DNA of 64,000 nucleotides from an uncultured Rhodoblastus sp. Lineage in GTDB: Bacteria; Pseudomonadota; Alphaproteobacteria; Rhizobiales; Beijerinckiaceae. Location of the stretch: positions 1-64,000 of the forward strand of contig NZ_CAIUXT010000201.1 of NCBI RefSeq assembly GCF_903903185.1, written 5' to 3'. The notes beneath the pieces are model-generated. The model made no database searches, had not been told where the DNA came from, and saw nothing but the letters and a program-made list of their open reading frames with translations. Numbering within the stretch: the first letter of the stretch is position 1; each line of letters starts with the position of its first letter. This document shows, one piece after another, positions 1,239-27,058 of the stretch. Both the position numbers and the translations under genes were made by a program.

Positions 1239-2054
1239 CTATAAAATTTTTGTCTCGCGCGCCGGCCCAGGGAAGAACACATTGACCCTTCGACAATAGT
1301 CCTCGAAAGCCGCGCCGCGCGAGGCCTGCATGTGGCGCTCCAGCGGCGGCACGCCGCTGACATGGACCAGCAGGACATAGATCAGCGCCGGCGCTGCAAA
1401 CGCGATCAGGCCCAACGGATAGGCGCCCGAGAAATCGAGAGCGATCAGCGGCCAGGCGCACCAGAACAGAAATTCGAAAAAATAATTCGGATGGCGCGAA
1501 TGGGCCCAGAGTCCGATGTCGCAGATGCTTCCCCGCGACGCCGTGCGGCGGAATCGCGTCAACTGGGCGTCGGCGAGCCCTTCGCCGAACAGCGCGCCGA
1601 TGGCGAGGAGCGCGCCCGCGACGTCGGTCGCGGCGGGAAAAGCCTGCGGCGCCCTCGCCGCGATGGCGACCGCCACGATCAGCGGCAGGGCCGCCGCCGC
1701 CTGAATCTGCAAAAAAATGAACAATTGCCTGCGGAAATCCGCACCCCATTCGCGCGCCAGCGCCGCATAGCGCGGATCGTCGCCGCCGCCGCGCGTGCGC
1801 GCGACGATATGGGTCGCAAGCCGTCCCGACCAGATCAGGACGAGCGTCGCCGCCAGAAGTTTTCGCCCGAAAGGCGTTTCGGAAGACGGGAAAAAAATCG
1901 CGGCAAGGCTCGCGAGGCCGGTGGCGGCCGACCAGATGGCGTCGATCCAGCCGCTGTTTCCGGTCCTGAGGCGCACGGCCCAGGCGAGGCTCATCGCCAA
2001 AACCATGAAAACAGCGGTAAAGGGGACAAGAACAGACATGGCGGGAATAGACAT
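1239..2054 (-). CDS. DUF1295 (steroid 5-alpha-reductase-like) membrane protein
   Basis: A 271-aa polytopic membrane protein. The start at 2054 (MSIPAMSVLV) has GGAA about ten bases upstream; 2039 is an alternative ATG. Several hydrophobic spans are followed by the family signature around LWAHSRHPNYFFEFLFW and a C-terminal Y-x-x-Y/F-x-R segment (FEDYCRRVNVFFP). DUF1295 proteins resemble NAD(P)H-dependent isoprenyl/steroid reductases and ICMT methyltransferases; the substrate is not known. It is divergent from the lipid-modifying operon starting at 2191, so a role in the same lipid pathway is plausible, but no sigma-E-like promoter is visible on its side. Confidence 0.8.
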   Translation of the reverse strand: MSIPAMSVLVPFTAVFMVLAMSLAWAVRLRTGNSGWIDAIWSAATGLASLAAIFFPSSETPFGRKLLAATLVLIWSGRLATHIVARTRGGGDDPRYAALAREWGADFRRQLFIFLQIQAAAALPLIVAVAIAARAPQAFPAATDVAGALLAIGALFGEGLADAQLTRFRRTASRGSICDIGLWAHSRHPNYFFEFLFWCAWPLIALDFSGAYPLGLIAFAAPALIYVLLVHVSGVPPLERHMQASRGAAFEDYCRRVNVFFPGPARETKIL

Positions 2055-2130
2055 GACGCGATTCCGATGATGTATTGCTTCAACGCAAGCGGCGACGCTT
2101 TGGATTGCAACCGTCGAAGGCGGCGGGTGG

Positions 2131-2158
2131 TGAACCATTGCCGCAGCGGCAACGTAAC
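2131..2158 (+). promoter_or_regulatory. Probable sigma-E (RpoE/ChrR) promoter of the lipid operon
   Basis: TGAACC (2131-2136), 16 bases, CGTAAC (2153-2158). The same arrangement, TGAACC-N16-CGTAA, sits upstream of the rpoE gene on the other strand at 8257-8283, with matching G-rich bases before the -35 element. It lies about 33 bases before the start codon at 2191, a sensible leader length. ECF sigma factors of this class commonly autoregulate, so the shared motif is the best evidence that this operon belongs to the RpoE regulon. Confidence 0.7.
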
Positions 2159-2190
2159 AGCTATTCGACGCTTTTCATCAAGAGGATTGG

Positions 2191-3564
2191 ATGGACCGTT
2201 TTTCTCCCCCGGGCCCGCTCCGCCAGAAAATTGCGGTGGTCGGCTCCGGCGTGTCCGGCCTCGCCTGCGCCTGGCTGTTGTCGGCTAACCATGATGTCGT
2301 TCTCTATGAGGCCGACGCGCGCCTCGGTGGCCATTCGAATACCGTCGAGGTATTGGCCAGAGCGGGCGCCGCCAAGGGCCGGACAATCCCCGTCGATACC
2401 GGCTTCATCGTCTATAACGAGCCGACCTATCCCAATCTGACCGCACTGTTCGCCCATATCGGCGTCAAGACGGCGGAAACCGAAATGTCCTTCGCGGTTT
2501 CTCTCGACCGGGGCGGGTTCGAATATGCCGGCAAGGATTTGCGCGGACTGTTCGCTCAGCCCGCCAATATTCTGAAAACCCGCTTCTGGTCGATGATCGT
2601 CGACCTGTTGCGCTTTTACCGGTCGGCGCCGCGCGACCTCGCCTCGCTCGGCGAAATGAGCCTCGACGATTATCTGAAGCGTGGAAATTACGGCGAGGCT
2701 TTCATCCGCGACCATCTCTATCCGATGGCCGCCGCGATCTGGTCGACTCCGGCGGCCAGCGTCGGCGATTATCCGGCCGCCTCCTTCATCCGCTTCTGTG
2801 AAAATCATGGCCTGTTGAAAATTTTGGGAAGGCCGGTCTGGCGGACCATTCCCGGCGGCTCCCGAACCTATGTCCAGCGTCTGGCTCAGGATATCGGCGA
2901 GATCCGGCGCGGCGCGCTGGTCGCGCAAATCCGGCGGCGCGCCGATGGCGTCGAAGTCGTCGATGCGCGCGGCGGCTCCGATCGTTTCGACCAGGTCGTC
3001 CTCGCCGCTCATGCCGACGACGCGCTCGCCCTGCTGGAACAGCCGAGCGAGGCGGAAAGCCGCATTCTCGGAGCCTTCCGCTATGCCGACAATCAGGCAT
3101 GGCTGCACGACGACCCCGCTTTCATGCCGCGCCGCAAGGCCGCCTGGGCAAGCTGGAATTATCTTTCGGAGGGCGGCGCCGATCCTGCGCTATCGGTCAC
3201 CTACTGGATGAACCGCCTGCAGCCGCTCGGCGCGGCGCCGGAACTTTTCGTCACCCTCAATCCCGCCCGCCCGCCGCGCGAAGAGAGGGTCTATCGCTGC
3301 GAGACCTATCGCCATCCGCAGTTCGACCTCGCCGCGATGCGGGCGCAGAAATTGCTTTGGTCGTTGCAGGGACAGGATCGGGTCTGGTATTGCGGCGCCT
3401 ATTTCGGCGCCGGTTTTCATGAGGACGGCTTGCAGGCGGGGCTTGCAGTCGCCGAACAGCTCGGCGGCGTGAAGCGTCCCTGGCGCGTCGAAAACGAGAG
3501 CGGACGCATTTCCATCGGCCCCGCCCCGGAAACGGCGGCGAGGGAGAAATTGCTGACGCCATGA
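2191..3564 (+). CDS. FAD-dependent amine oxidase-like oxidoreductase (COG2907)
   Basis: A 457-aa flavoprotein. The N terminus has the FAD-binding beta-alpha-beta motif KIAVVGSGVSGLACAWLL followed by the acidic strand end LYEADARLGGHSNTV, and the C terminus the flavin segment WYCGAYFGAGFHEDGLQ. GAGGA precedes the ATG by four bases. It is the first gene of a four-gene operon in which each next start overlaps the previous stop (ATGA). Members of COG2907 sit with DUF1365 and cyclopropane-synthase genes in many bacteria. In Rhodobacter sphaeroides homologues of this pair are sigma-E targets, and a flavin-dependent desaturase (UfaD) acts in bacterial furan fatty acid synthesis; which of these roles applies here is inference. 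Confidence 0.85.
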   Translation: MDRFSPPGPLRQKIAVVGSGVSGLACAWLLSANHDVVLYEADARLGGHSNTVEVLARAGAAKGRTIPVDTGFIVYNEPTYPNLTALFAHIGVKTAETEMSFAVSLDRGGFEYAGKDLRGLFAQPANILKTRFWSMIVDLLRFYRSAPRDLASLGEMSLDDYLKRGNYGEAFIRDHLYPMAAAIWSTPAASVGDYPAASFIRFCENHGLLKILGRPVWRTIPGGSRTYVQRLAQDIGEIRRGALVAQIRRRADGVEVVDARGGSDRFDQVVLAAHADDALALLEQPSEAESRILGAFRYADNQAWLHDDPAFMPRRKAAWASWNYLSEGGADPALSVTYWMNRLQPLGAAPELFVTLNPARPPREERVYRCETYRHPQFDLAAMRAQKLLWSLQGQDRVWYCGAYFGAGFHEDGLQAGLAVAEQLGGVKRPWRVENESGRISIGPAPETAAREKLLTP

Positions 3565-4457
3565 CGACGATAGCCGAAAATGCGACCGCCAAGAACACGG
3601 GGACGACGGAGACGAAGGCCACGGAGTTCTCGTCCCTCGGCGCGCCCGCACTTTATGTCGGCGCCGTCACCCATCGCCGTCTGCGGCCGCGCGAGCACAA
3701 GCTCGCCTATCGCATCTATTCGCTGCTGCTGGATCTCGACCGTCTGGACGAGCTCGACGCCCGGCTGAAACTGTTTTCGCTCGACCGTTTCAACCTGTTT
3801 TCCTTCTACCGCGCCGATCGCGGCGACAAATCGGCGCCTCCCAAATCCTCGGCTAAACTGCGCCAAAGGATCGAGACCTCGATGCGCGGCGCCGGAATCG
3901 AGCCCGACGGCGGCCCGATCTGGCTGCTCACCATGCCGCGCCTGCTGGGCTGGGCCTTCAATCCGATCAGCGTGTTCTATTGCTTCGCCCGGTCGGGCAA
4001 GCTGGCGGCGGTGCTGTGGGAAGTCGACAATACGTTCGGCGAGCGCCACGCCTACATGATTCCGGTGGACGGCGACCCGGAGGACGAAATCCGGCAGGCC
4101 TGCCCGAAGGATTTCCATGTCTCGCCCTTCATGAACATGACGCTCGACTACGCCTTCCGGCTGCGGGTTCCCGGCGAGCGGCTCAACCTCGCCATCGACG
4201 TGTCGGACCTTTCCGGCCTGCTGCTCACCACCCATTATCGCGCCCATCGCCATGAGCTGACCGACGCCAATCTGCTGCGGGTGTTCTTCAGCGTGCCCCT
4301 TTTGACCCTGCGGGTGGTCGGGGGCATCCATTGGGAGGCGCTCAAGCTCTGGCGCAAGGGCATCGGGCTGCGGCCCAAGCCACCGCCGCCTCTGGCTCCT
4401 GTCACTTTCATCAAAACCGCCAGCCCTCATGCGATCCGCAAAGGCCTTTCCGAATGA
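3561..4457 (+). CDS. DUF1365 (COG3496) family protein
   Basis: A 298-aa protein with the DUF1365 hallmarks ALYVGAVTHRRLRPREH near the N terminus, NPISVFYCF in the middle and NTFGERHAYMIP after it, then HVSPFMNM. Its ATG overlaps the TGA of the flavoprotein gene (ATGA at 3561-3564), implying translational coupling. The biochemical activity is not established; the family travels with COG2907 flavoproteins and Cfa-type methyltransferases. In R. sphaeroides the COG3496 member was reported to affect singlet-oxygen-triggered turnover of ChrR (from memory of the literature). Here it lies 3 kb from rpoE-chrR behind a matching promoter. Confidence 0.85.
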   Translation: MTTIAENATAKNTGTTETKATEFSSLGAPALYVGAVTHRRLRPREHKLAYRIYSLLLDLDRLDELDARLKLFSLDRFNLFSFYRADRGDKSAPPKSSAKLRQRIETSMRGAGIEPDGGPIWLLTMPRLLGWAFNPISVFYCFARSGKLAAVLWEVDNTFGERHAYMIPVDGDPEDEIRQACPKDFHVSPFMNMTLDYAFRLRVPGERLNLAIDVSDLSGLLLTTHYRAHRHELTDANLLRVFFSVPLLTLRVVGGIHWEALKLWRKGIGLRPKPPPPLAPVTFIKTASPHAIRKGLSE

Positions 4458-5701
4458 GCAGCCTCGATTCTTCCTCGCAGCGAACACTGGAACGGACGCG
4501 AAAGGGCCGGTTCCTCGTCAGTCCCGGCGCCCATGTGCTGCGGCGGCTGCTGAGCCGCCTGCACGTCGGCCGGTTGGTCGTGCAATTGCCGTCGGGAGAA
4601 AGCTGCGAAGGGCGCGGACCGGTTCCGGGGCCGGAGGCCTCGCTGCGCATCGTCCATCACCGGGCGTTGCGGCGGCTGTTTTCGCGCGGCGACGTCGGTC
4701 TGGCCGAAGGCTTCATCGAGGGCGACTGGACCAGTCCCGACCTCGTCGCGCTGATGCGCCTGGCCGCCGCCAATTCGCCGCATATCGGAGCCTTCGTCTC
4801 GGGCTCGCCGATCTTCCGCCTGCTCAACCGGATGCAGCTGCGTTTCAAGTCCAATTCCCGGCGCGGCAGCCGCAGCAACATCATGAGCCATTACGACCTC
4901 GGCAATGAATTCTTCCAGCTCTGGCTCGATCCGACCCTGCTCTATTCCTCGGCCGTCTGGCATGAGGACACGCCGGATCTCGAAAGCGCGCAGCAGAACA
5001 AGCTGGCGCGCATCGTCGAAAGCCTCGGAATTCGCGGCGGCGAGCATGTGCTCGAAATCGGTTGCGGCTGGGGCGCTTTGGCGCGGCGTCTCGTCGAAGC
5101 GGGAGCGGGACGCGTAACCGGCCTCACCCTGTCGCCGTCGCAACTGGCCTTCGCGCAAAAATCCCTTGCCGGCGTCGAGGCCGGTGAAAAAGTCGATCTG
5201 CGGCTGCAGGATTATCGCGACGTGTCCGGACAGTTCGACCGCGTCGTCTCCATCGAGATGATCGAGGCGGTGGGAGAGGCCTATTGGCCGGCCTATTTCG
5301 GCAAGATCGCGCAGGTGCTCAAATCCGGTGGGCGGGCGCTGATCCAGGCCATCACCATCGAGGACGAGCGTTTCGACGATTACCGCGCCCGGCCGGACTT
5401 CATCCAGCGCCACATTTTCCCCGGCGGCTTCCTGCCCTGCCCCACGGCGATGGCGCAACAGGCCGAGCGCGCCGGGCTGCGCCTCGTGTCCGTGGAGAAT
5501 TTCGGCCTGTCCTATGCGAAAACCCTGGCCGAATGGCGCCGGCGTTTCGAGGCGCGCCGCGACGAGGTCGCGGCGCAGGGCTTCGATGAGCGCTTCCAGC
5601 GCCTGTGGACCTATTACCTGTGCTATTGCGAAGCCGCCTTCCGCGAAAAGGCGACCGACGTCGGCTTCTACCTGCTTGAAAAAACCGGAGCGAGCGCATG
5701 A
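4454..5701 (+). CDS. cfa: Cyclopropane-fatty-acyl-phospholipid synthase-type SAM methyltransferase
   Basis: A 415-aa enzyme; ATG at 4454 overlaps the previous TGA. The N-terminal lipid-binding part contains LAEGFIEGDW, followed by SHYDLGNEFFQLWLDP and the SAM-binding motif HVLEIGCGWGALA, then MIEAVGEAYW and the conserved RPDFIQRHIFPGG segment. These are diagnostic of the CfaB/Mycolic acid methyltransferase family, which methylates double bonds of phospholipid acyl chains at the inner membrane. The product could be a cyclopropane, or a methyl-branched unsaturated chain as made by UfaM in furan fatty acid synthesis; sequence alone does not decide. Operon context and the upstream sigma-E-like promoter link it to oxidative membrane stress. 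Confidence 0.88.
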   Translation: MSSLDSSSQRTLERTRKGRFLVSPGAHVLRRLLSRLHVGRLVVQLPSGESCEGRGPVPGPEASLRIVHHRALRRLFSRGDVGLAEGFIEGDWTSPDLVALMRLAAANSPHIGAFVSGSPIFRLLNRMQLRFKSNSRRGSRSNIMSHYDLGNEFFQLWLDPTLLYSSAVWHEDTPDLESAQQNKLARIVESLGIRGGEHVLEIGCGWGALARRLVEAGAGRVTGLTLSPSQLAFAQKSLAGVEAGEKVDLRLQDYRDVSGQFDRVVSIEMIEAVGEAYWPAYFGKIAQVLKSGGRALIQAITIEDERFDDYRARPDFIQRHIFPGGFLPCPTAMAQQAERAGLRLVSVENFGLSYAKTLAEWRRRFEARRDEVAAQGFDERFQRLWTYYLCYCEAAFREKATDVGFYLLEKTGASA

Positions 5702-6093
5702 AAATCCTGGCTGTCTATGTCGCGACCCTCGTGGTTTTTCTCGGCGTGGATTTCATCTGGCTCGGCCGCATGGGCGACGCCTTCTATCGTCCGGCCATGG
5801 GCGACATGGCGCTGACCGACTTCCGGCTCGCGCCGGCGATCGTCTTCTATCTGCTCTATGCCTTTGGCGTGGTGTTTTTCGCGGTCAATCCCGCCTTGGC
5901 CTCGGGCGACTGGAAGACCGCGCTGCTGAACGGCTTTTTGCTCGGCCTCGTCGGCTATGGCGTCTACGATCTGACCAATCAGGCGACGCTCAAGTCCTGG
6001 CCGGTGGCGCTGACCCTCGTCGATATGACCTGGGGCGCTTTTCTCACCGGAATCGCAGCGCTGGGCGGCTATGGCGCCGGACGGCTGGTGTAA
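5698..6093 (+). CDS. DUF2177 membrane protein
   Basis: A 131-aa protein with four predicted membrane spans, beginning MKILAVYVATLVVFLGVDF. The signature FIWLGRMGDAFYRPAMGD and the later GVYDLTNQATLKSWP match the DUF2177 family. It overlaps the methyltransferase gene by ATGA and ends the operon. Members of this family are found next to cfa-like and DUF1365 genes; no activity is known. Presumably it acts in the inner membrane on, or in transport of, the modified lipid. Confidence 0.82.
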   Translation: MKILAVYVATLVVFLGVDFIWLGRMGDAFYRPAMGDMALTDFRLAPAIVFYLLYAFGVVFFAVNPALASGDWKTALLNGFLLGLVGYGVYDLTNQATLKSWPVALTLVDMTWGAFLTGIAALGGYGAGRLV

Positions 6094-6094
6094 G

Positions 6095-6120
6095 AAAAAC
6101 CGGGCCGCGCAGCGGCCCGG
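6095..6120 (-). terminator. Intrinsic terminator for the His/Arg-repeat gene
   Basis: Perfect 9-bp GC stem (6100-6108 with 6112-6120, loop GCA). Read on the minus strand it is followed immediately by GTTTTTC, so it terminates the minus-strand gene ending at 6150. On the plus strand there is no T-tract, although the stem may protect the 3' end of the lipid operon mRNA. Confidence 0.7.
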
Positions 6121-6149
6121 GCAAGATCGAAAAAAACCGCTCGGGGCGG

Positions 6150-6473
6150 TCAGCGCCAGCGGCAGATGCGTCGTCCATGGCTCCACCAGCAAACCTGGTG
6201 GCGGCGATGGTGGTGATGGACGACCACCGGGCGACGATGGTGATGGTGATGAACGACGACCGGACGGCGATGGTGGTGGCGGACAGCCGGACGGCGATGG
6301 TGGACGACGACCTGGGCCTTTTCGATCGGCGCTTCGATCGGTCCGGACCGGATTGACGCCGGCGCGATGGGCGCGGCGTCGGCGGCGCCCGCGATCAGGC
6401 CGACCGTCAGCGCGAAGGCGACGGCGGCCCTTTGCAGACCCGTCAGTATGCTGTTGTTATCGACCAATGCCAT
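6150..6473 (-). CDS. Exported histidine/arginine-repeat protein of unknown function
   Basis: A 107-aa protein. AAGGAG seven bases before the ATG at 6473 fixes the start (an upstream ATG at 6500 lacks it). The first 43 residues form a signal peptide ending near AADAAP. The mature half is an imperfect repeat of RRPVVVHHHH (three or four copies) with about twenty His, and ends VCWWSHGRRICRWR, a Trp/Arg/Cys tail seen in small exported proteins of related bacteria. His clusters suggest metal binding and Arg clusters nucleic acid, LPS or phospholipid contact; neither is shown. It lies between the lipid operon and chrR, transcribed towards the former, and has its own terminator. Confidence 0.75.
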   Translation of the reverse strand: MALVDNNSILTGLQRAAVAFALTVGLIAGAADAAPIAPASIRSGPIEAPIEKAQVVVHHRRPAVRHHHRRPVVVHHHHHRRPVVVHHHHRRHQVCWWSHGRRICRWR

Positions 6474-6810
6474 GGCGAAGCTCCTTGCGTCCCGCTTCAT
6501 TGCTACATCCCGCTTCGGCGGCGGTCAAACCCGCATTGGCCGCGCGGCGGCCGGGCGTCTCCGGCTGCCGCGCCCGATCCCGCGGTCTTTGCCGGTTTGC
6601 ACGTCCGGCTTCGCGCGAGAGACCCGGCTGAGGCGCTATAGTCCATTGCACGCGGGACGAGGAGCGTCAGGGTCAAGGGGCTTGCAAGCTTTGGAAAAAT
6701 GCGGGCGCCCGGCTCCCGTGGTTCGAGACGCGCCTGTCCATGGCACAGGGAACGAATTTCATGAGGGCGGCCTCCCGGCGAGGAGGCCCGGCACAGGCGC
6801 CGAAAACCGG
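6474..6810. other. Intergenic, no gene seen
   Basis: Between the His/Arg-repeat gene start and the chrR stop. It must hold the promoter of the repeat gene, but I find no convincing -35/-10 pair. A 7-bp stem (6769-6775 with 6782-6788) just after chrR may end the rpoE-chrR transcript; it lacks a T-tract. Confidence 0.4.
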
Positions 6811-7470
6811 CTAAATCCCCATCAGCGGCTGAAACATCCGCCCCATCAGGGAATTGATGAGCAGGGGCTGTTCGACCGCGGCGATGCACAGACATTCTCC
6901 CCCGTCGGTCACCCGGGGTTCGTGGTCGCAAAGCTCCTCGTCCGCCTCGATCAGGTCGCCGGGACCGTAAAGGCCTCGCGAGTCGCTGAATCGACCGTAG
7001 AGCACCTGCGTCAGTTCGAGCCCGCGATGGGCATGGGCCGGCGCCTTGTGACCGGCGGCGATCTTGAGCAGCACCACGCGTTCGTCGGGCGCGTCGGCCA
7101 GACGCACGCGCGCCCAGCGTAGATTGGGGTTGATGAAGCGCCACGGGCCGATCTCGCTGCCCGCAAGCGCCGCCGGCAGGGCGAAGCCATTCGGCAGGAC
7201 GGGCGCCTGTTTTCGCCATCGCCGTCTTTCGGGCGGGACGGGACCAGCGTCGATAGTCAGGAAAATCCTTTCCAGTTGCGACGACGAAACCGGGGCCGGC
7301 GGGAGGTTTTCGAGCAGCGCGCCGCCCATGGCCTCGAACAACTTGACCCGGTCGCGGCAATGAGGACAGGATTCGAGATGAATGGAGACCACAAGGCGCG
7401 GTCCCGCCCCGAGATTTCCTGCGGCGAGTCGCATCAGGGTTTGGTCGCTTGGATGCCGGAAAGCGGTCAC
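6811..7470 (-). CDS. chrR: ChrR-type zinc anti-sigma factor with C-terminal cupin
   Basis: A 219-aa protein whose start overlaps the rpoE stop (ATGA, 7467-7470). The N-terminal zinc anti-sigma domain has H6, H31, C35 and C38, exactly the four zinc ligands of Rhodobacter sphaeroides ChrR, within the motif IHLESCPHC. The C-terminal domain is a cupin: H146 and H148 (PAHAHRGLE), E152 and H183 (LCDHEPR) are the likely metal-binding residues. In Rhodobacter the cupin is needed to sense singlet oxygen, after which ChrR is destroyed and sigma-E freed. Same function is inferred here because of residue-level agreement, coupling to rpoE and the nearby lipid operon. Confidence 0.93.
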   Translation of the reverse strand: MTAFRHPSDQTLMRLAAGNLGAGPRLVVSIHLESCPHCRDRVKLFEAMGGALLENLPPAPVSSSQLERIFLTIDAGPVPPERRRWRKQAPVLPNGFALPAALAGSEIGPWRFINPNLRWARVRLADAPDERVVLLKIAAGHKAPAHAHRGLELTQVLYGRFSDSRGLYGPGDLIEADEELCDHEPRVTDGGECLCIAAVEQPLLINSLMGRMFQPLMGI

Positions 7471-8213
7471 GGCGCTTCCTCCATCAGGGTTTTGAGCCGC
7501 GCCAGCGCCAGCCGCACCCGCGACTTGACAGTGCCAAGCGGCACGCCGAGGTCGCGCGCGATGGCCGATTGCGGCTTCTCGGCGAAATAGGCCTGTTCGA
7601 GAACCATCGCCTGTTCGCGGCTCAGTTGCGACAGGGCCCTGCGCAGCTTCGTCTCGCGTTCGGCGGTCAGCAGGAGGTCCTCCGCTGTCGGACTGTCGTC
7701 GATTTTATCCCAGTCTTCGAGCGGCGACAGCTCGCGATTGGCCTTGCGGCGCTGGTAATCGGTGCGCAGGTTGCGCGCGATGACGAAAATCCAGGTGGAG
7801 GCGCCGCCAAGCGCCGGACTGTAAAGTCCCGCCTTGCGCCAGACCGAGACCATGGTTTCCTGCACGACGTCCTCCGCCTGCGCCGGGGTCATGCCGGAAC
7901 GCGTCAGCCAGGCGGCGAGGCGCGGCGCGAAATAGGTGTGCAGGCGGGCGAAGGCGTCGCGATCCTGCCTTTGCGCCACGGCCTGCAGCCATGCCGCCAG
8001 ATTTTCGGGAGTCGAACCCGTTTCGACGCTATCGACCTTCACCCGCAGCGCTTGGCTTTCCTTCGGACCTGTTTGCTCATTCGCATCGACGCGAAACGAT
8101 GGTCCGAAAGGATCGCCGCGCCGCCGATGCGGCATGAGTAGCCCGAATCGCGCCTCGGGGTCCAGCGGAACCCCGGCGGGACCGATCGACGAAACGGCGA
8201 AAGCTATGGTCAT
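7467..8213 (-). CDS. rpoE: ECF sigma factor RpoE (ChrR-controlled, group ECF11)
   Basis: A 248-aa protein. Region 2 is seen at FARLHTYFAPRLAAWL through ASTWIFVIARN and DYQRR; region 4 contains AEKPQSAIARDLGVPLGTVKSRVRLAL. Partnering with chrR defines it as the singlet-oxygen sigma factor. The ATG at 8213 has a very good ribosome site (GGAAGGGAG) and lies about 40 bases after its own predicted promoter. This start gives roughly 65-70 residues before the sigma core, which is absent from the R. sphaeroides protein; internal Met27 has no visible ribosome site. Autoregulation is indicated by the TGAACC-N16-CGTAA motif shared with the operon at 2191. Confidence 0.92.
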   Translation of the reverse strand: MTIAFAVSSIGPAGVPLDPEARFGLLMPHRRRGDPFGPSFRVDANEQTGPKESQALRVKVDSVETGSTPENLAAWLQAVAQRQDRDAFARLHTYFAPRLAAWLTRSGMTPAQAEDVVQETMVSVWRKAGLYSPALGGASTWIFVIARNLRTDYQRRKANRELSPLEDWDKIDDSPTAEDLLLTAERETKLRRALSQLSREQAMVLEQAYFAEKPQSAIARDLGVPLGTVKSRVRLALARLKTLMEEAP

Positions 8214-8256
8214 GCGCTCCCTTCCTTTCAAGCGGCCCTCATAGCGCGCCTGATTT

Positions 8257-8283
8257 TTACGAAGGAAAGCGATCGACGGTTCA
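8257..8283 (-). promoter_or_regulatory. Probable autoregulated sigma-E promoter of rpoE-chrR
   Basis: On the minus strand: TGAACC (complement of 8278-8283), 16 bases, CGTAAAAA (starting at 8261). It is the same as the promoter predicted at 2131-2158 in both elements and spacer length, and stands about 44 bases upstream of the rpoE start codon. Confidence 0.72.
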
Positions 8284-8466
8284 CCCATCGAGCGAGGGTG
8301 CGAATTGGCTCGGGGCGCCGGGCGCCTCGCAGCCCTCCGGCTTTGTCGGAGCGCTTGCGGCGGATCCCATATAGAGCCGCAGCGCGGGCTTGGGCTTTGT
8401 GATGCTGGACAACAGCCGGCAAAGCATGGAAGGTTATGACAAGATTTGGAGGTGGGGGGGATTTCG

Positions 8467-9609
8467 GTGCGCATCTCGATTCTCGCCGCTCTGGTTTTCG
8501 GCGGTCTCGCCGTTCCCGCTGTCGCCCAGAAGCAGGCGCCGGCCACCCAGCAGCAGGCGCAGCCCGCCTTCCCCGTCGGCATTGTCCTCGCCAAACGCGC
8601 CCCCATCGCGAAAACCGCCGAATTCGTCGGGCGCGTCGAGGCCATCGAGCGGGTCGAGATCCGGGCGCGCGTCACCGGCTTTCTCGAATCGGTCAATTTC
8701 AGGGAAGGCGAAGACGTCAAGCAGGGCGCGCCGCTCTATAGCATCGAAAAGGACCAGTTCAAGGCGGCGGTCGAACAGGCGCGCGGCGCGCTGGAGCGCG
8801 ACAAGGCGGCGAAAACCCTGGCGGAAATCGATCTGAAGCGCGCCCAGGAATTGATGAACAAGGGCAGCGGCACGGTGGTGGCGCGCGACAAGGCGCGCGC
8901 GGCGGACGAACAGTCGCAGGGCTCGCTGACCGCCGATCTGGCCAATCTGGAGACCGCGCAGATCAACCTGCGCTATACCGACATCATCGCCCCGATTGCC
9001 GGAAAAGTCGGCAAGACCAATGTCACCAAAGGCAATGTCGTCGGGCCGGACAGCGGCGTCCTGACCACGATCGTCAGCCAGGACCCGATGCGGGTCGCCT
9101 TCCCGGTCAGCCAGCGCGAATTTTTGCGCGCCAAGTCCGGAGCAGCCAAGTCCGGAGAAAACGGCGGAAAGCGGGAGACGGTCAAGGTCCAGCTGCGTTT
9201 CTCCGACGGCCAGGCCTATGACCAGTCTGGAACCGTCGATTTCATCGATGTCACCGTGGACCGCAAGACCGACACCGTGCTGGTGCGCGCCACGTTCCCC
9301 AATCCGGACGAAATTCTCGTCGACGGCCAGCTGGTGCGCGTCAATCTGGAAAGCGACCGGCCCGAAGAAAAAGTAATCGTCCCGCAGGCGTCGATCATCG
9401 CCGATCAGGAAGGCGTCTATGTCTTCATCGTCGAGGACGGCAAGGCTGCGGTCCGGCGCGTCACGGTGGGCGCCGAGATCGGCGCCGGCGTCGTCATCGA
9501 ACAGGGACTTTCCGGCGGCGAACAGGTGATCGTGCAGGGCCTGCAGGGCGTGCGCCCCGGCGTCGCGGTGCGCGCCAATCCCTTGCCGCAGACGCTGGTG
9601 GGAGACTGA
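8467..9609 (+). CDS. RND efflux periplasmic adaptor (AcrA/MexA family)
   Basis: A 380-aa membrane fusion protein. The GTG at 8467 is preferred because it gives a clean signal peptide ([13 protein letters not shown]...AVAQ) and lies downstream of GGAGGTGGGGGGG; an in-frame TTG at 8446 overlaps that site. The barrel-sandwich half-motif [25 protein letters not shown] and the later [14 protein letters not shown] frame a helical hairpin of coiled-coil type, followed by beta-barrel and membrane-proximal domains. It bridges the pump encoded four bases downstream to an outer membrane channel, which is not in the window. Divergent from rpoE but without a sigma-E motif on this side. Confidence 0.93.
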
Positions 9610-9613
9610 CAAC

Positions 9614-12600
9614 ATGTTCTCCGCGCTTTTCGTCGACCGGCCCCGGCTGGCGATCGTCATCGCCATCGTCACCACCATCGCCGGCGTGCTGGCGCTGCTG
9701 GCGATTCCGATCGCCCAATATCCCGACATTGTGCCGCCGCAGGTTTCCGTCACCACCTTCTATCCCGGCGCCAACGCCAAGGTCGTCGAGGAATCGATCG
9801 CCCAGCCGATCGAGGCGCAGGTGGTCGGCGTCGACAAGATGATCTACATGAAGAGCGTCAGCGGCGACGACGGCTCCTACACGCTCACCGCCTCGTTCGA
9901 ACTGGGCACGAACCCCGACATCAACACCGTCAATATCAACAATCGCGTCCAGACCGCCATGGCCAGCCTGCCGCCCGACGTGCAGCGCCAGGGCGTGACG
10001 GTGAAGAACAAGTCCTCCGCCCTGCTCGGCGTCATCGCGGTCTTTGCCCCCAAGGGCACGCATGATCCTCTGTTCCTGTCGAATTACGCCACCATCAACC
10101 TCATCGACCGGATCAAGAGCACGCCCGGCGTCGGCGACGCCTCGCTGTGGGGCCCACAGGATTACGCCATGCGCGCCTGGGTGCGCACCGACCGGCTGAC
10201 CGGCCTCGGCCTGACCACCGGCGACATCATCGACGCCATCAAGGCGCAGAACGTGCAGGCGGCGGTCGGCCGCATCGGCGCGCGCCCGGCCTCCAACGAT
10301 CAGCAATTGCAGCTCAACATCCAGACGACGGGCCGCCTCCACACGGTCAAGGAATTCGAAGAGATCATCATCCGCTCCAATCCCGACGGCTCGATGTTGC
10401 GGCTTGGCGACGTGGCGCGGCTGGAGCTCGGCGCCGCCAATCTCGACCGCGACACAAGGTTCAACGGCGGGCCGGCCTCGGTGGTGGCGATCTTCCAGTC
10501 GCCGGGCGCCAATGCCATCTCGACGTTCGAAGAAGTGCGCCGGCGGATGGCCGAGGCGCAGCAGCGCTTTCCCGACGATCTCGAATGGAAGGTGGTCTAC
10601 GACCCGACCTTGTTCGTCACCGACACCATCCATGAGGTGCAGAAGACGCTGATCGAGGCGTTTGTCCTCGTGGTTCTCGTGGTCTTTCTGTTTCTGGGGA
10701 GTTTGCGCGCCACGTTGATCCCGACTCTGGCGGTGCCGGTCAGCCTGATCGGCACGTTCGTCGCCTTGCTCGCCGTCGGCTATTCGGCCAATACGGTGTC
10801 GCTGCTGGCCATCGTGCTGGCCATCGGCATCGTCGTCGACGACGCCATCGTCGTGGTCGAGAATGTCGAGCGCGTGATGGAGGAACATCCCGAACTGACG
10901 CCCGCCGAGGCGACCAAGAAGGCGATGGCCGAAATCACCGCGCCGATCATCGCCATCACCCTCGTCTTGCTCTCGGTGTTCGTGCCGGTCGCCTTCATTC
11001 CCGGCATTTCCGGCGAATTGTTCCGCCAATTCGCGGTGACGGTGGCGGTCGCCATGCTGTTGTCGGCGATCAACGCCCTGACCCTGTCGCCGGCCCTGTG
11101 CAGCATCCTGCTCAAGCCCCATCACGGCCCGAGGAAAGGCCCGATCGGCTGGGTCATGAACGGAATCGACAAGGTGCGCGATTCCTATGGCGCCGTTGTC
11201 GCCCGTCTCGTGCGCATCGCCGTCATCGGCCTCGTCATGGTCGGCGTCGCCATGCTCGGCATCGTCGGCCTGTCGAAAATCACCCCTACGGGGTTTTTGC
11301 CGGAGGACGACCAGGGCGCTTTTTTCGTCATCGTGCAATTGCCGGGCGGCGCTTCGGTGGCGCGCACCACCGACGCCATCGCGCAAGCCGAGGCGATCCT
11401 CAAGGACGAGCCCGCGGTCGAGGACGTCACCTCCGTCGTCGGCCTCAATTTCATCGATTCCTATTCCGAGCCCAACGCCGCCTTCATCGTCGTCACGCTC
11501 AAGGAATTCGAACATCGCAAGGCGGCTTCGCTCGGCGCCAAGCAGGTCATCGCGCGGGTCGGTGAAAAATTCCGGCAGATTCAGGGCGCCAATGTGCTGC
11601 CGCTGGCGCCGCCGCCGGTCATCGGGCTCGGCACGGGGGGAGGATTCACCTATGTGCTGGAGGATCTGCGCGGCGGCGACAGCAAGGCCATGGCGCAGGC
11701 CCTGCGCGGCCTGCTCGTCGCGGCCAACCAGGACCCGCAGCTCGCCCGCGTGTTCAGCACGTTTTCCGCGACCAACCCCTCGATCTTCCTCGATATCGAC
11801 CGCGAAAAGGCGCAAATCCTCGGCGTCGGCCTGAGCAATGTGTTCCAGGCCCTGCAGGCGTCGCTCGGCGGCTATTTCGTCAACAACATGAACCTCTATG
11901 GACGCACCTGGCAGGTGCAGGTGCAGGCCGAGGCCGCCGACCGCGCAAGACTGGACGACATCTACCGCATCAATGTGCGCAGCAAGGATGGCGCGATGAT
12001 CCCGCTGCGCAGCCTCGTCGAGACCAAGGTCGTCGTCGGCCCCTCGGCGCTGATCCGCTACAATAACCTGCGCGCGGTGACGATCCAGGGCGCGCCCGCC
12101 CCCGGCGTTTCCTCCGGACAGGCGCTCAACGCCATGGCGGCGGTGGCGGCGCGCACCCTGCCGCCGGGCTATGCCGGAGAATGGACCGACACCGCTTTTC
12201 AGGAGAAGAAGGCGGAAGGCAAGACCGCGATCATTCTCGGATTCGCGCTGCTGTTCGCCTATCTGTTCCTCGTCGCGCTTTACGAAAGCTGGTCGATCCC
12301 GGTTCCGGTCCTGCTGTCGGTCGCCATCGGCGTGCTCGGCTCCTACGCGGCAATCGCGCTGGCGGGCCTGACGCTCGATCTCTATGCCCAGATCGGCATG
12401 GTCGTGCTGATCGGCCTCGCCGCCAAGAACGGGATTCTGATCGTGGAATTCGCCAAGGAGAAACGCGAACAGGGCGTTCCGCTGCTGGAGGCGGCGGCGG
12501 AGGGCGCGCGGTTGCGCTTCCGGCCGGTGATGATGACCTCTTTCGCCTTCATCCTCGGGCTTTATCCGCTCGTCGTCGCCACCGGCGCCTCGCAACTGGC

Positions 12601-12781
12601 GCGGCGCAATGTCGGCACCCCCGTGTTCGGCGGCATGATTCTGGCGTCTTTCATCGGCATTTTCGCCATCCCGCCGCTTTATGTCACCTTCCAGGCGATC
12701 CGCGAAAAGCTTCGGCCCGGCGCGCGTCCGAAGCCCAAGGGCGATCCCGATAAGCCCGAGCGCGGCGCGCCCGCCGAATGA
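9614..12781 (+). CDS. RND multidrug efflux permease (AcrB/HAE1 family)
   Basis: A 1055-aa inner-membrane pump of normal length. TM1 follows [15 protein letters not shown]; the pore-domain segment [16 protein letters not shown] and the TM4 proton-relay pair in [19 protein letters not shown] are present, as is [13 protein letters not shown] opening the second half and [16 protein letters not shown] in TM10. Two large periplasmic loops lie between TM1-2 and TM7-8. Co-transcribed with the adaptor (four-base gap). Drug range cannot be predicted; no local repressor gene is visible and the tolC-like partner must be elsewhere. Confidence 0.94.
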
Positions 12782-12788
12782 ACAGGTT

Positions 12789-13685
12789 CTAAAGCCCGCG
12801 CGCCCAGGCCGGCCGCAGCGGGGCTGCCTCGGGCGCCGCGATGGCGGCGCGCAATTCCCGCAACAATCGCGGCTTGTCCGCCCCGAGCGTCCCTCTTAGA
12901 ACCAGCCAGTTCGAGGCGTGGTCGCTGCGAAACACCGTCCTTTCCAGTTCCAGCGCCGAAAGCAACAGTTCCATTTCCTGCATCAGGCCCGGCACGTCGA
13001 GCGGCTCCCAGCCGGGGAATTTTTCGAGGAAGCGCGTCTCGCCTTGTGGAAAGCTGACCACCAGCGTCGAAAGAAATTCGGGCTGTGTGGCGTTCATCAG
13101 CGCCGCCGAATTCAAGGCATGCTGGCGCGACAGGGCGCGGCCGCCGAGGCCGTTCAAAATCATCACCGAGCGCTTGATCCCGGCCTCGCCCAGTTTTTCC
13201 AGCGCCTCGCGGCTGCTCTCGAAGGTCTCGCCCTTGTCCACCGCCGCCAGCACTTCGTCGTCGCCCGATTCCGCGCCGACATAGACCAGCGACAGCCCAA
13301 GCTCGGCCAGTTCGCGCAATTCGGCGGCGGTTTTCTTGCGCAGATTGCGCGGCAGGCAATAGCTCGACACCCGCCTTACGCCGGGCAGGTCGCGGCGGAT
13401 GGCTTCGAGAATGGCGGCGAGACGGCGCACCGAAAGCGTCATCGCGTCGCCGTCGGACAAGAAAACGCGACGCACGCTCTGGCCCATTTGCTCGCCGCAG
13501 CGCCGGATGCTGTCGAAGACCTCTTCCTCGCCGCGCGGACGGAAGCGCTTCTGCGGCGCCGTGTACATTTCGCAGAACGTACACTTGTTCCAGGAGCAGC
13601 CGTCGGTCACCGGCAGAATCAGCGATTCCGCCTCGCTTGGCGGACGATAAACGGGTTCGACATAACGGATCGGGGCGATGGTCAT
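12789..13685 (-). CDS. Radical SAM protein
   Basis: A 298-aa protein with a cluster motif C30-x4-C35-x2-C38 in DGCSWNKCTFCEMY. The x4 spacing is usual for this subfamily of COG1032-like radical SAM enzymes, not a defect. Further family features are the RVFLSDGDAM strand, the Glu/Gly-containing VYVGAESGDDEVL and a C-terminal segment without extra cysteines, so only one iron-sulfur cluster is expected. The substrate is unknown. It is convergent with the efflux permease, with seven bases between the stop codons, and is probably a single-gene transcript. Confidence 0.85.
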   Translation of the reverse strand: MTIAPIRYVEPVYRPPSEAESLILPVTDGCSWNKCTFCEMYTAPQKRFRPRGEEEVFDSIRRCGEQMGQSVRRVFLSDGDAMTLSVRRLAAILEAIRRDLPGVRRVSSYCLPRNLRKKTAAELRELAELGLSLVYVGAESGDDEVLAAVDKGETFESSREALEKLGEAGIKRSVMILNGLGGRALSRQHALNSAALMNATQPEFLSTLVVSFPQGETRFLEKFPGWEPLDVPGLMQEMELLLSALELERTVFRSDHASNWLVLRGTLGADKPRLLRELRAAIAAPEAAPLRPAWARGL

Positions 13686-25651: not shown

Positions 25652-27058
25652 ATGAATCGATTTAGCCAGAAAGCGATGCGGGCATGGGCGGGCCTCGGAA
25701 CCCGCTTTCTTCCATTCGCCGATTCGGCCACTCCGGAATTGCCGCTCCCGAGGCTGTTGCGGCTGTCGCTGTTTCAGGTTTCGGTCGGGATGGCGCTGGT
25801 CCTGCTCGTCGGCACGCTCAACCGCGTGATGATCGTCGAGCTTGGGGTTCCCGCCTCGCTGGTCGGGATCATGATTTCGCTGCCGCTCATTTTCGCGCCG
25901 TTGCGCGCCGTGATTGGTTTCCGCTCCGACAACCATCATTCGGCGCTGGGCTGGAGGCGCGTGCCCTTCATCTGGAAGGGCGCGCTGTTGCAATTTGGCG
26001 GGCTCTCGATCATGCCTTTCGCGCTGCTGGTGCTGGCAGGCGCGGGTAATGCGAGCCAGGCGCCGGCATGGCTCGGCTATGCCGGAGCAGGCGCGGCGTT
26101 TTTGCTCGTCGGCGCCGGCCTGCACACGATTCAGACCGTGGGTCTCGCCCTCGCCACCGATCTGGCGCCGACCCAGGCCCAGCCTAAAGTCGTCGGCTTG
26201 ATGTATGTGATGCTGCTTGTCGGCATGATCGTCTGCGCGCAGCTGTTTGGCGCCCTGCTGGCGGATTTCACGCCCGGGCGCCTCGTCCAGGTGATCCAGG
26301 GCGCGGCCGTGGCGACCATGGTTCTCAATTCCATCGCGCTGTGGAAGCAGGAGGCGCGAAAGCCCTCGCGAGCTCAGAACACGGTCCGCCCGCCTTCGTT
26401 CCGGGAATCCTGGGCGAGCTTCACCTCGGGCGAGAACGCCATCCGCCGGCTGGTCGCCATTGGCCTTGGAACCATGGCCTTCAGCATGGAGGATATCCTG
26501 CTGGAGCCCTATGGCGGACAGGTTCTGGGCCTTACCGTCGGCCAGACGACAAGATTGACGGCGGCGCTCGCCATCGGCGGCCTGTTCGGCTTCGCTCTCG
26601 CCTCCCGCGTGCTGAGCCGCGGGGCCGATCCCTTCCGCATGGCCTGCTATGGCGCCCTGGCCGGAATTCCGGCTTTCGCCGCCGTCATTCTCGCGGCGCC
26701 GTTCGATTCGACCCTGCTGTTTGGCTTCGGCACGATGATGATCGGGTTCGGGGCGGGCCTGTTCGGCCATGGCACCTTGACGGCGACGATGAATCTGGCG
26801 CCCGAGAACCAGACGGGCCTGGCGCTCGGCGCCTGGGGCGCGGTGCAGGCCTCGGCGGCGGGACTGGCGATCGCCATGGGCGGCGTCATCCGCGATGTCG
26901 TCGCCGGACTGCCGATCCAGCAGCCATTCGGACCCGCGACCTCCTACGACGCCGTTTACGGCCTCGAAATGCTGCTGCTGCTGGCGGCCATCGCCGTCAT
27001 GGCCCCGCTGCTTCGCCGCTCTCCGGAATCAGCCCCGGCGGCTCAGACTTCCGCCTGA
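25652..27058 (+). CDS. pucC: PucC, LH2 assembly protein (BCD-family MFS)
   Basis: A 468-aa, 12-span membrane protein. LPRLLRLSLFQVSVGMALVLLVGTLNRVM in the first span, and FRSDNHHSALGWRRVPFIW followed by GALLQFGGLSIMPFALLVL, are typical of the PucC/LhaA/BchG-associated major-facilitator family. Members are needed for LH1/LH2 assembly, probably by delivering bacteriochlorophyll to antenna apoproteins. Placement directly after pucBA fixes the call. The start lacks a strong Shine-Dalgarno sequence, and it follows the 18-bp repeats, which suggests low, controlled translation. Two stem-loop terminators follow at 27159 and 27235. Confidence 0.94.
   Translation: MNRFSQKAMRAWAGLGTRFLPFADSATPELPLPRLLRLSLFQVSVGMALVLLVGTLNRVMIVELGVPASLVGIMISLPLIFAPLRAVIGFRSDNHHSALGWRRVPFIWKGALLQFGGLSIMPFALLVLAGAGNASQAPAWLGYAGAGAAFLLVGAGLHTIQTVGLALATDLAPTQAQPKVVGLMYVMLLVGMIVCAQLFGALLADFTPGRLVQVIQGAAVATMVLNSIALWKQEARKPSRAQNTVRPPSFRESWASFTSGENAIRRLVAIGLGTMAFSMEDILLEPYGGQVLGLTVGQTTRLTAALAIGGLFGFALASRVLSRGADPFRMACYGALAGIPAFAAVILAAPFDSTLLFGFGTMMIGFGAGLFGHGTLTATMNLAPENQTGLALGAWGAVQASAAGLAIAMGGVIRDVVAGLPIQQPFGPATSYDAVYGLEMLLLLAAIAVMAPLLRRSPESAPAAQTSA

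Follow-up and report, generated by a model that had tools for sequence, protein, structure and literature searches.

Which response is encoded by a gene cluster that joins a sigma factor and its zinc anti-sigma factor, rpoE-chrR, to an operon of lipid genes, and do the two membrane protein families that accompany them, DUF2177 and DUF1295, take part in it? The cluster lies near the beginning of a 64,000-nucleotide (nt) stretch of DNA, hereafter the window (positions 1 to 64,000 of contig NZ_CAIUXT010000201.1), from an uncultured Rhodoblastus sp. We take it to be the Rhodoblastus-group version of the singlet-oxygen response of sigma-E/ChrR, a sigma factor pair of extracytoplasmic function (ECF) group 11, joined to a furan fatty acid pathway, and give this reading a probability of roughly 0.86. 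The genes, their order, the promoter sequences, the zinc ligands and the co-occurrence patterns on which it builds are direct observations.

As the initial annotation had claimed, ChrR possesses all four zinc ligands: H6, H31, C35 and C38 are kept, and align with those of ChrR from Cereibacter (Rhodobacter) sphaeroides (2z2s). A second zinc site in the cupin-like domain (H146, H148, E152 and H183) is also kept, together with C193 and C195, and Pfam finds in this pair the ChrR cupin domain and sigma-70 regions 2 and 4. A review describes a sigma-E/ChrR core regulon and has the furan fatty acid genes acting in the turnover of ChrR (PMC6852236), while homologues of RSP1091-1090 have been reported from 337 genomes, mostly near rpoE-chrR, with both RSP1091 and RSP1090 required for full activation of RpoE by singlet oxygen (PMC3818230). 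Because the window genome contains two reaction-centre genes and a PUCC protein (25652-27058), the organism is very likely a phototroph, in which singlet oxygen would be expected. One photolyase is also found in this genome, on another contig.

Within the lipid operon (2191-6093), each of the three junctions between its four genes is a 4-nt overlap (ATGA), and Pfam agrees with the protein families that had been named for the cluster. The first three (2191-5701) appear, from their families, order and promoter, to be the counterparts of the furan fatty acid genes ufaD-ufaO-ufaM. UfaD (RSP1091), UfaO (RSP1090, DUF1365) and UfaM have been reported to convert 18:1 chains jointly to a methyl furan fatty acid, as do RPA2571, RPA2570 and RPA2569 of Rhodopseudomonas palustris, where deletion demonstrated necessity and expression sufficiency; the furan lipid is described as an antioxidant that is quickly lost once cells meet singlet oxygen, and the electron donor of UfaO as not known (PMC7380195).

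The two operons carry the same promoter sequence. The window holds just two matches to TGAACC-N16-CGTAA, one before ufaD on the plus strand and one before rpoE-chrR on the minus strand (Table 1), with equal spacers and near the start codons, as had been noticed from the outset: 35 positions separate the end of the -10 element from the start of ufaD, and 45 from that of rpoE. The first promoter begins at 2131 as annotated, and its end, given as 2158, was one base too far. Among 100 shuffles of the window the mean was 0.01 matches, and none had two. Both promoters have a motif score of 16.5. The motif of the ECF11 sigma factor of Pseudomonas syringae, obtained by chromatin immunoprecipitation sequencing (ChIP-seq), is TGATCC-N16-CGTA (PMC5507510), and the promoter of rpoE-chrR itself, which reads TGAACC-N16-CGTA against this published form, fits the ECF11 type. 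An A stands at position 4 in 7 of 49 ufaD and rpoE sites, which were picked with A or T permitted there, and the spacer is 16 in 53 of 56 sites when 15 to 17 were permitted. A 15-base inverted repeat in the spacer of the ufaD promoter (about 2138-2152) was not in the related promoters compared, and was dropped.

Table 1. Features of the cluster in the window, and two genes behind sites of the same type on other contigs.
Feature	Position	Strand	Basis or remark
DUF1295 integral-membrane protein, divergent from ufaD	1239..2054	-	Pfam DUF1295 1.4e-54; position conserved in genus
Weak sigma-E-like site, CAATCC-N16-CGTT	2082..2107	-	27 nt before DUF1295 ATG; score 3.0
ECF11-type promoter of ufa operon	2131..2157	+	TGAACC-N16-CGTAA; compare ChIP-seq motif in PMC5507510
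ufaD homologue, flavin adenine dinucleotide-dependent, RSP1091/RPA2571 type (COG2907)	2191..3564	+	Pfam Amino_oxidase/NAD_binding_8; R. palustris RPA2571-2569 order
ufaO homologue, DUF1365, RSP1090/RPA2570 type	3561..4457	+	Pfam DUF1365 1.2e-78
ufaM homologue, S-adenosylmethionine-dependent acyl methyltransferase, CMAS family	4454..5701	+	Pfam CMAS 3.6e-84 (longer frame from 4331)
DUF2177 small membrane protein, last gene of operon	5698..6093	+	Pfam 2.1e-45
His/Arg-rich putative secreted protein, between DUF2177 and chrR	6150..6500	-	No family match; not a module member
chrR, zinc anti-sigma factor with cupin-like domain	6811..7470	-	TIGR02451 187.1 bits, cut-off 124.5
rpoE, ECF11-type sigma factor	7467..8213	-	Best PDB match C. 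sphaeroides RpoE 2q1z, 1.9e-33
ECF11-type promoter of rpoE-chrR	8257..8283	-	TGAACC-N16-CGTAA, exact match
2Fe-2S ferredoxin	Contig C110, L072:1125-1445; site 1501-1526, 55 nt upstream	-	Behind sigma-E-type site
DUF3429 membrane gene	Contig C209, L075:1535-1993	+	Directly behind TGATCC-N16-CGTA

We infer every biochemical and regulatory step of the response from the homologous systems of C. sphaeroides and R. palustris. Singlet oxygen would disable ChrR and so free sigma-E, which would transcribe both rpoE-chrR and ufaD-ufaO-ufaM-DUF2177. UfaM would then methylate the 18:1 acyl chain of a membrane phospholipid, UfaD would form the diene, and UfaO would add oxygen, closing the furan ring. DUF2177 and, less certainly, the divergent DUF1295 would be membrane partners of the furan lipid within this same response; their role in lipid handling is likewise one that we infer. 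The sensor and membrane-lipid pathway with a shared promoter that had been proposed is well supported, and the pathway can now be named more exactly, as furan fatty acid synthesis.

The compact union of sensor and lipid genes, correctly recognized here, is not peculiar to the window genome. UfaO was found in 6 of 10 genus relatives searched, three of which show all seven genes in the order of the window, the other three ending at contig ends. The best 80 of at least 583 confirmed UfaO loci, which are those closest to the query and no random sample, contain UfaD in 80 cases, UfaM in 62, RpoE in 61 (some of these matches being distant ECF sigma factors), DUF1295 in 60, ChrR in 57 and DUF2177 in 53, counting matches of at least 70 residues. 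RpoE and ChrR occur together in 56 of these named loci, and in 29 all seven genes lie within about 10 kb of UfaO. Neither C. sphaeroides nor R. palustris is among the species named for these loci.

Both additional families track the pathway. Among 60 related genomes, the window's own included, 33 have UfaO; DUF2177 occurs in 22, every one of them UfaO-positive (Fisher p 1.4e-8), and strong matches to DUF1295, with E below 1e-30, occur in 19, again all UfaO-positive (p 4.8e-7), kinship being ignored in both tests. When only one genome per genus is counted, the associations are 18/18 (p 4e-7) and 14/14 (p 2e-5), respectively. At the level of the class (289 genomes, 153 with DUF1365), DUF1365 is present in 34 of the 37 genomes with DUF2177 and in 36 of the 40 with strong DUF1295 matches.

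DUF2177 can also have a promoter of its own. Of the named loci, 53 have DUF2177 in the vicinity of UfaO; by our rule it forms a separate unit in 25 of them, and in 16 of these 25 its own TGAWCY-N16-CGTW lies no more than 170 nt upstream, compared with 20 of 1125 background open reading frames (ORFs), a set that includes many spurious genes. An earlier rule for separateness, by which 17 of 44 genes scored at least 13 against a background of 1.2 percent, was replaced because many of the 44 sit behind ufaM with one intervening gene. Among the relatives' stretches, 7 of the 14 with a DUF2177 match have the site before this gene; in one (L064) DUF2177 is the first gene of the ufa operon, with the site, and four of the seven stretches lacking it hold the genus operon.

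DUF1295, divergent in the window, is by position often the third gene after rpoE-chrR in other loci. A weaker site, C[GA]ATCC-N16-CGTT or CAATCC-N16-CGTA, faces it in all six Rhodoblastus-group intergenic regions read, at 4 to 85 nt from start codons that are not settled; of 40000 random 200-nt windows from the same loci, 323 contained a slightly wider pattern. Among 24 divergent DUF1295 loci scanned, the best site was GAAACC-N16-CGTA in nine (Rhizobium, Brucella, Pinisolibacter and kin).

It could be that neither DUF2177 nor DUF1295 plays any part in lipids or the singlet-oxygen response, and that both are bystanders, kept beside the other genes by the structure of the operon and by common descent. 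We regard this as unlikely, though more probable than the other alternatives, and several observations weigh in its favor and against a place for the two families in the response. The relatives are not independent of each other, and the control genome of Lactococcus lactis has both DUF2177 and DUF1295 without DUF1365. In the class, DUF1365 is missing from 3 of the 37 genomes with DUF2177 and from 4 of the 40 with strong DUF1295 matches; the threshold that defines a strong match was drawn after the table had been seen, and among the 25 genomes with a DUF1295 match of any strength UfaO is absent from 4. Near the cluster, 9 of the 25 DUF2177 genes that form separate units have no such site of their own, and the site facing DUF1295 is weak (3.0 vs 16.5), its pattern having been defined after the site was seen. 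For copies away from the cluster, the strict site is found within 300 nt of none of eight DUF2177 genes (one of them at a contig end) and within 300 nt of the family match in just two of six DUF1295 cases, which raised our estimate for the bystander explanation slightly. Four of the eight distant DUF2177 copies score 12.4, one base off, a score that about 2 percent of background windows reach.

Against the bystander explanation, the associations persist when each genus is represented by a single genome, a separately placed DUF2177 near the cluster has its own motif, and in a green alga singlet oxygen induces all five gene types jointly (PMC4067076; values below). The missing promoter at distant copies weakens the lead that the two families offer but does not remove it, and the lead is still a useful one. 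Since both families track the pathway across genomes, are often in the cluster under its promoter and are co-induced in the alga, they are direct candidates for the fate of the spent furan lipid, and the compact cluster of the Rhodoblastus group allows single deletions to be easily designed.

Compared with solved structures, DUF2177 returned no sequence relative at E up to 1. An identification of RPA2568 as DUF2177 was unsupported; in two Bradyrhizobium loci the gene after ufaM is, by eye, cysteine-synthase-like. In heliorhodopsin operons, another light-linked setting, DUF2177 has been named together with an alpha/beta hydrolase (PMC11109279). Genes for DUF2147 and TspO/MBR flank DUF2177 in a Brucella locus (L141: 12079-12462 and 12898-13350). 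TspO binds porphyrins, and its presence beside DUF2177 there would fit photo-oxidative stress. Loci of Neorhizobium, Rhizobium and Agrobacterium (L132, L144 and L171) have a distant ECF sigma factor (26-31% identity) after DUF2177, at about 13030-13130 on the plus strand, together with GAAACY-type promoters, which hints at a sigma swap.

For DUF1295, a profile of 44 proteins points to a possible distant relation to steroid 5-alpha-reductases, enzymes that use NADPH to reduce steroid enones: it matches 7c83 (1.4e-5) and 7bw1 (1.2e-3) over 72 of 269 positions, with an Asn and a Glu shared in the aligned region. Pfam Steroid_dh matches all 44 members at E up to 0.01; the window protein, at 18.8 bits, falls below the cut-off of 22.6. 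ICMT matches 24 of the 44 and PEMT 9, so that a methyltransferase is also conceivable. Furans react with singlet oxygen to form endoperoxides and then ene-diones, and for this reason an enone reductase would be a sensible partner of the pathway; DUF1295 may reduce the spent furan lipid. Going further, we put forward as a speculation, unlikely in its entirety, that DUF1295 and DUF2177 constitute an unrecognized second half of the furan-lipid response, extending from bacteria to green algae, in which DUF1295 would reduce the ene-dione, a reactive enone, in the membrane, DUF2177 would be a small membrane partner of the lipid enzymes, and the co-regulated 2Fe-2S ferredoxin may feed electrons to UfaO.

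A different product is also conceivable: the operon might make cyclopropane or plain methyl-branched chains, with its Ufa-like neighbors doing something else. UfaM belongs to the CMAS family and Cfa-type models are its top matches in NCBIfam, so that a cyclopropane product is possible on these scores, and our assignment of ufaD, ufaO and ufaM draws on families, gene order and promoter only; both points count against the furan reading. However, UfaM reaches at most 255 bits with the NCBIfam Cfa models, below their cut-offs of 400 to 650, and its gene stands in an overlapping operon with homologues of UfaD and UfaO, as in R. palustris. In Escherichia coli Cfa, the Cys and His at positions 139 and 266 are catalytic. 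An alignment to this enzyme covered 61 UfaM-type proteins, the window's and, from named loci, those exceeding 330 residues. In every one Gln stands in place of H266 and Ala in place of H240, with Ser (59 proteins) or Ala (2) in place of C139; the window UfaM, with Ser and Gln at C139 and H266, lacks the Cys and His of Cfa. We consider the cyclopropane explanation quite improbable.

Under the furan reading, the number of methyl groups can also be predicted. UfaM is the sole CMAS protein above the cut-off in the window genome (91 percent complete), which leaves this genome without a FufM candidate and predicts a monomethyl furan acid. A second UfaM-like match, distinguished from the first solely by identity below 38 percent, is found in 43 of the 80 named loci, often beside DUF1295. 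In the one example compared (L141:6673-7698, minus strand), the best solved-structure match is a plant coclaurine N-methyltransferase (5.9e-59). This second methyltransferase may be a candidate for FufM, because Arabidopsis AT4G33110 is reported to be FufM-like (PMC10940516) and CFA2 of Chlamydomonas is labeled coclaurine (PMC4067076).

That both copies of the motif arose by chance and the two clusters are regulated separately is extremely improbable. In favor of chance and against our reading, TGAWCC-N16-CGTA has 6 matches in the whole genome vs 4 for reversed controls; in the genome-wide search that had been suggested, the exact form, TGAACC-N16-CGTAA, has 4 matches vs 1 for the reversed control, and the number of sites by itself thus shows no clear enrichment in this genome. 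Against chance, two exact copies precede, by 35 and 45 positions, the starts of homologues of published targets, and the ufaD and rpoE sites keep the same spacing in many relatives. In six relatives TGAWCC-N16-CGTA gives 55 matches vs 12 for the control; many of the 55 are inside long open frames, and three are one repeated sequence.

The regulon had been called self-contained, a description that does not hold, as sites of the TGAWCC-N16-CGTA type precede ferredoxin and DUF3429 genes elsewhere in the window genome; the rpoE-chrR/ufa unit looks like a hub instead. A 2Fe-2S ferredoxin stands behind a sigma-E-type site in the window genome and in two others (G002 and G004), and that of the window genome (C110) may be a candidate electron donor of UfaO. 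In G007, a shorter DUF3429 ORF adjoining DUF1295 also has the site (L038:11249-11569, minus strand). Other recurrent genes behind such sites are folE (G003, G004, G007 and G008), fasciclin (G004 and G007) and MsrB (G003, G008 and G010), with peroxiredoxin in G007 alone; the family was checked in one example of each, and for DUF3429 in both genomes. Between the sigma-E promoter and rpoE, folE is present in G007 and G003 (L038:4540-5211, L040:5489-6151), appears by eye as an N-terminal remnant in G002 (L035, about 12050-12203), and is absent in the window. The C110 site was at one point placed upstream of a response-regulator gene, which we reject, as it is on the minus strand before the ferredoxin ORF. 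Two further sites are not claimed to mark targets: that on C222 overlaps, by eye, a minus-strand helicase-like ORF at its start, and that on C234 lies 127 nt before an ORF of unchecked family.

Of the extra members proposed for the unit, DUF2177 and DUF1295 are linked to it by their co-occurrence with UfaO, and for the His/Arg-rich protein no link was found. It has no sigma-E-like site (best score 3.2 vs 16.5 for the two promoters) and no match in the 32 relatives' stretches compared, and we reject it as a member of the module. A large transporter-like gene pair, of efflux-pump type by eye, adjoins rpoE (8452-12781, plus strand); no sigma-E site was found upstream of it (best score -3.4).

Compared with sigma-E/ChrR of C. 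sphaeroides, the window has the same zinc anti-sigma factor with cupin-like domain, the same ECF11 promoter, and homologues of RSP1091-1090 beside rpoE-chrR under the same promoter type. It differs in adding DUF2177 and DUF1295, and in having its methyltransferase gene inside the operon, whereas RSP2144 is at another locus; a short-chain dehydrogenase or lipoprotein like RSP1087/1088 was not found in 1239-8213 by Pfam, the only search made for them. With RPA2571-2569 of R. palustris it shares the three families ufaD-ufaO-ufaM in identical order, and differs in that DUF2177 overlaps the end of ufaM and a second CMAS protein over the cut-off is absent.

DUF2177 and DUF1295 are not in the published core regulon as cited in PMC5507510. 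Among the papers listed in literature searches, none links the two families to the bacterial cluster; for DUF1295 with singlet oxygen the listing held only work on Chlamydomonas, and for DUF2177 this same work, the heliorhodopsin paper and one on a virus. In this alga the SAK1-dependent induction by singlet oxygen (log2) is 5.92 for CFA1, 4.05 for CFA2, 3.50 for DUF1365, 3.25 for DUF2177 and 3.04 for DUF1295, and the same table includes a fasciclin-like protein and the methionine sulfoxide reductase MSRA3 (PMC4067076, Table 5). Much of the gene set of the window is thus present by family name, a likeness drawn without comparison of the algal sequences. The regulator differs, being eukaryotic, and we know of no operon for the SAK1-dependent genes. 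The kind of system encoded in the window is already known, and DUF2177 and DUF1295 are its new lead.

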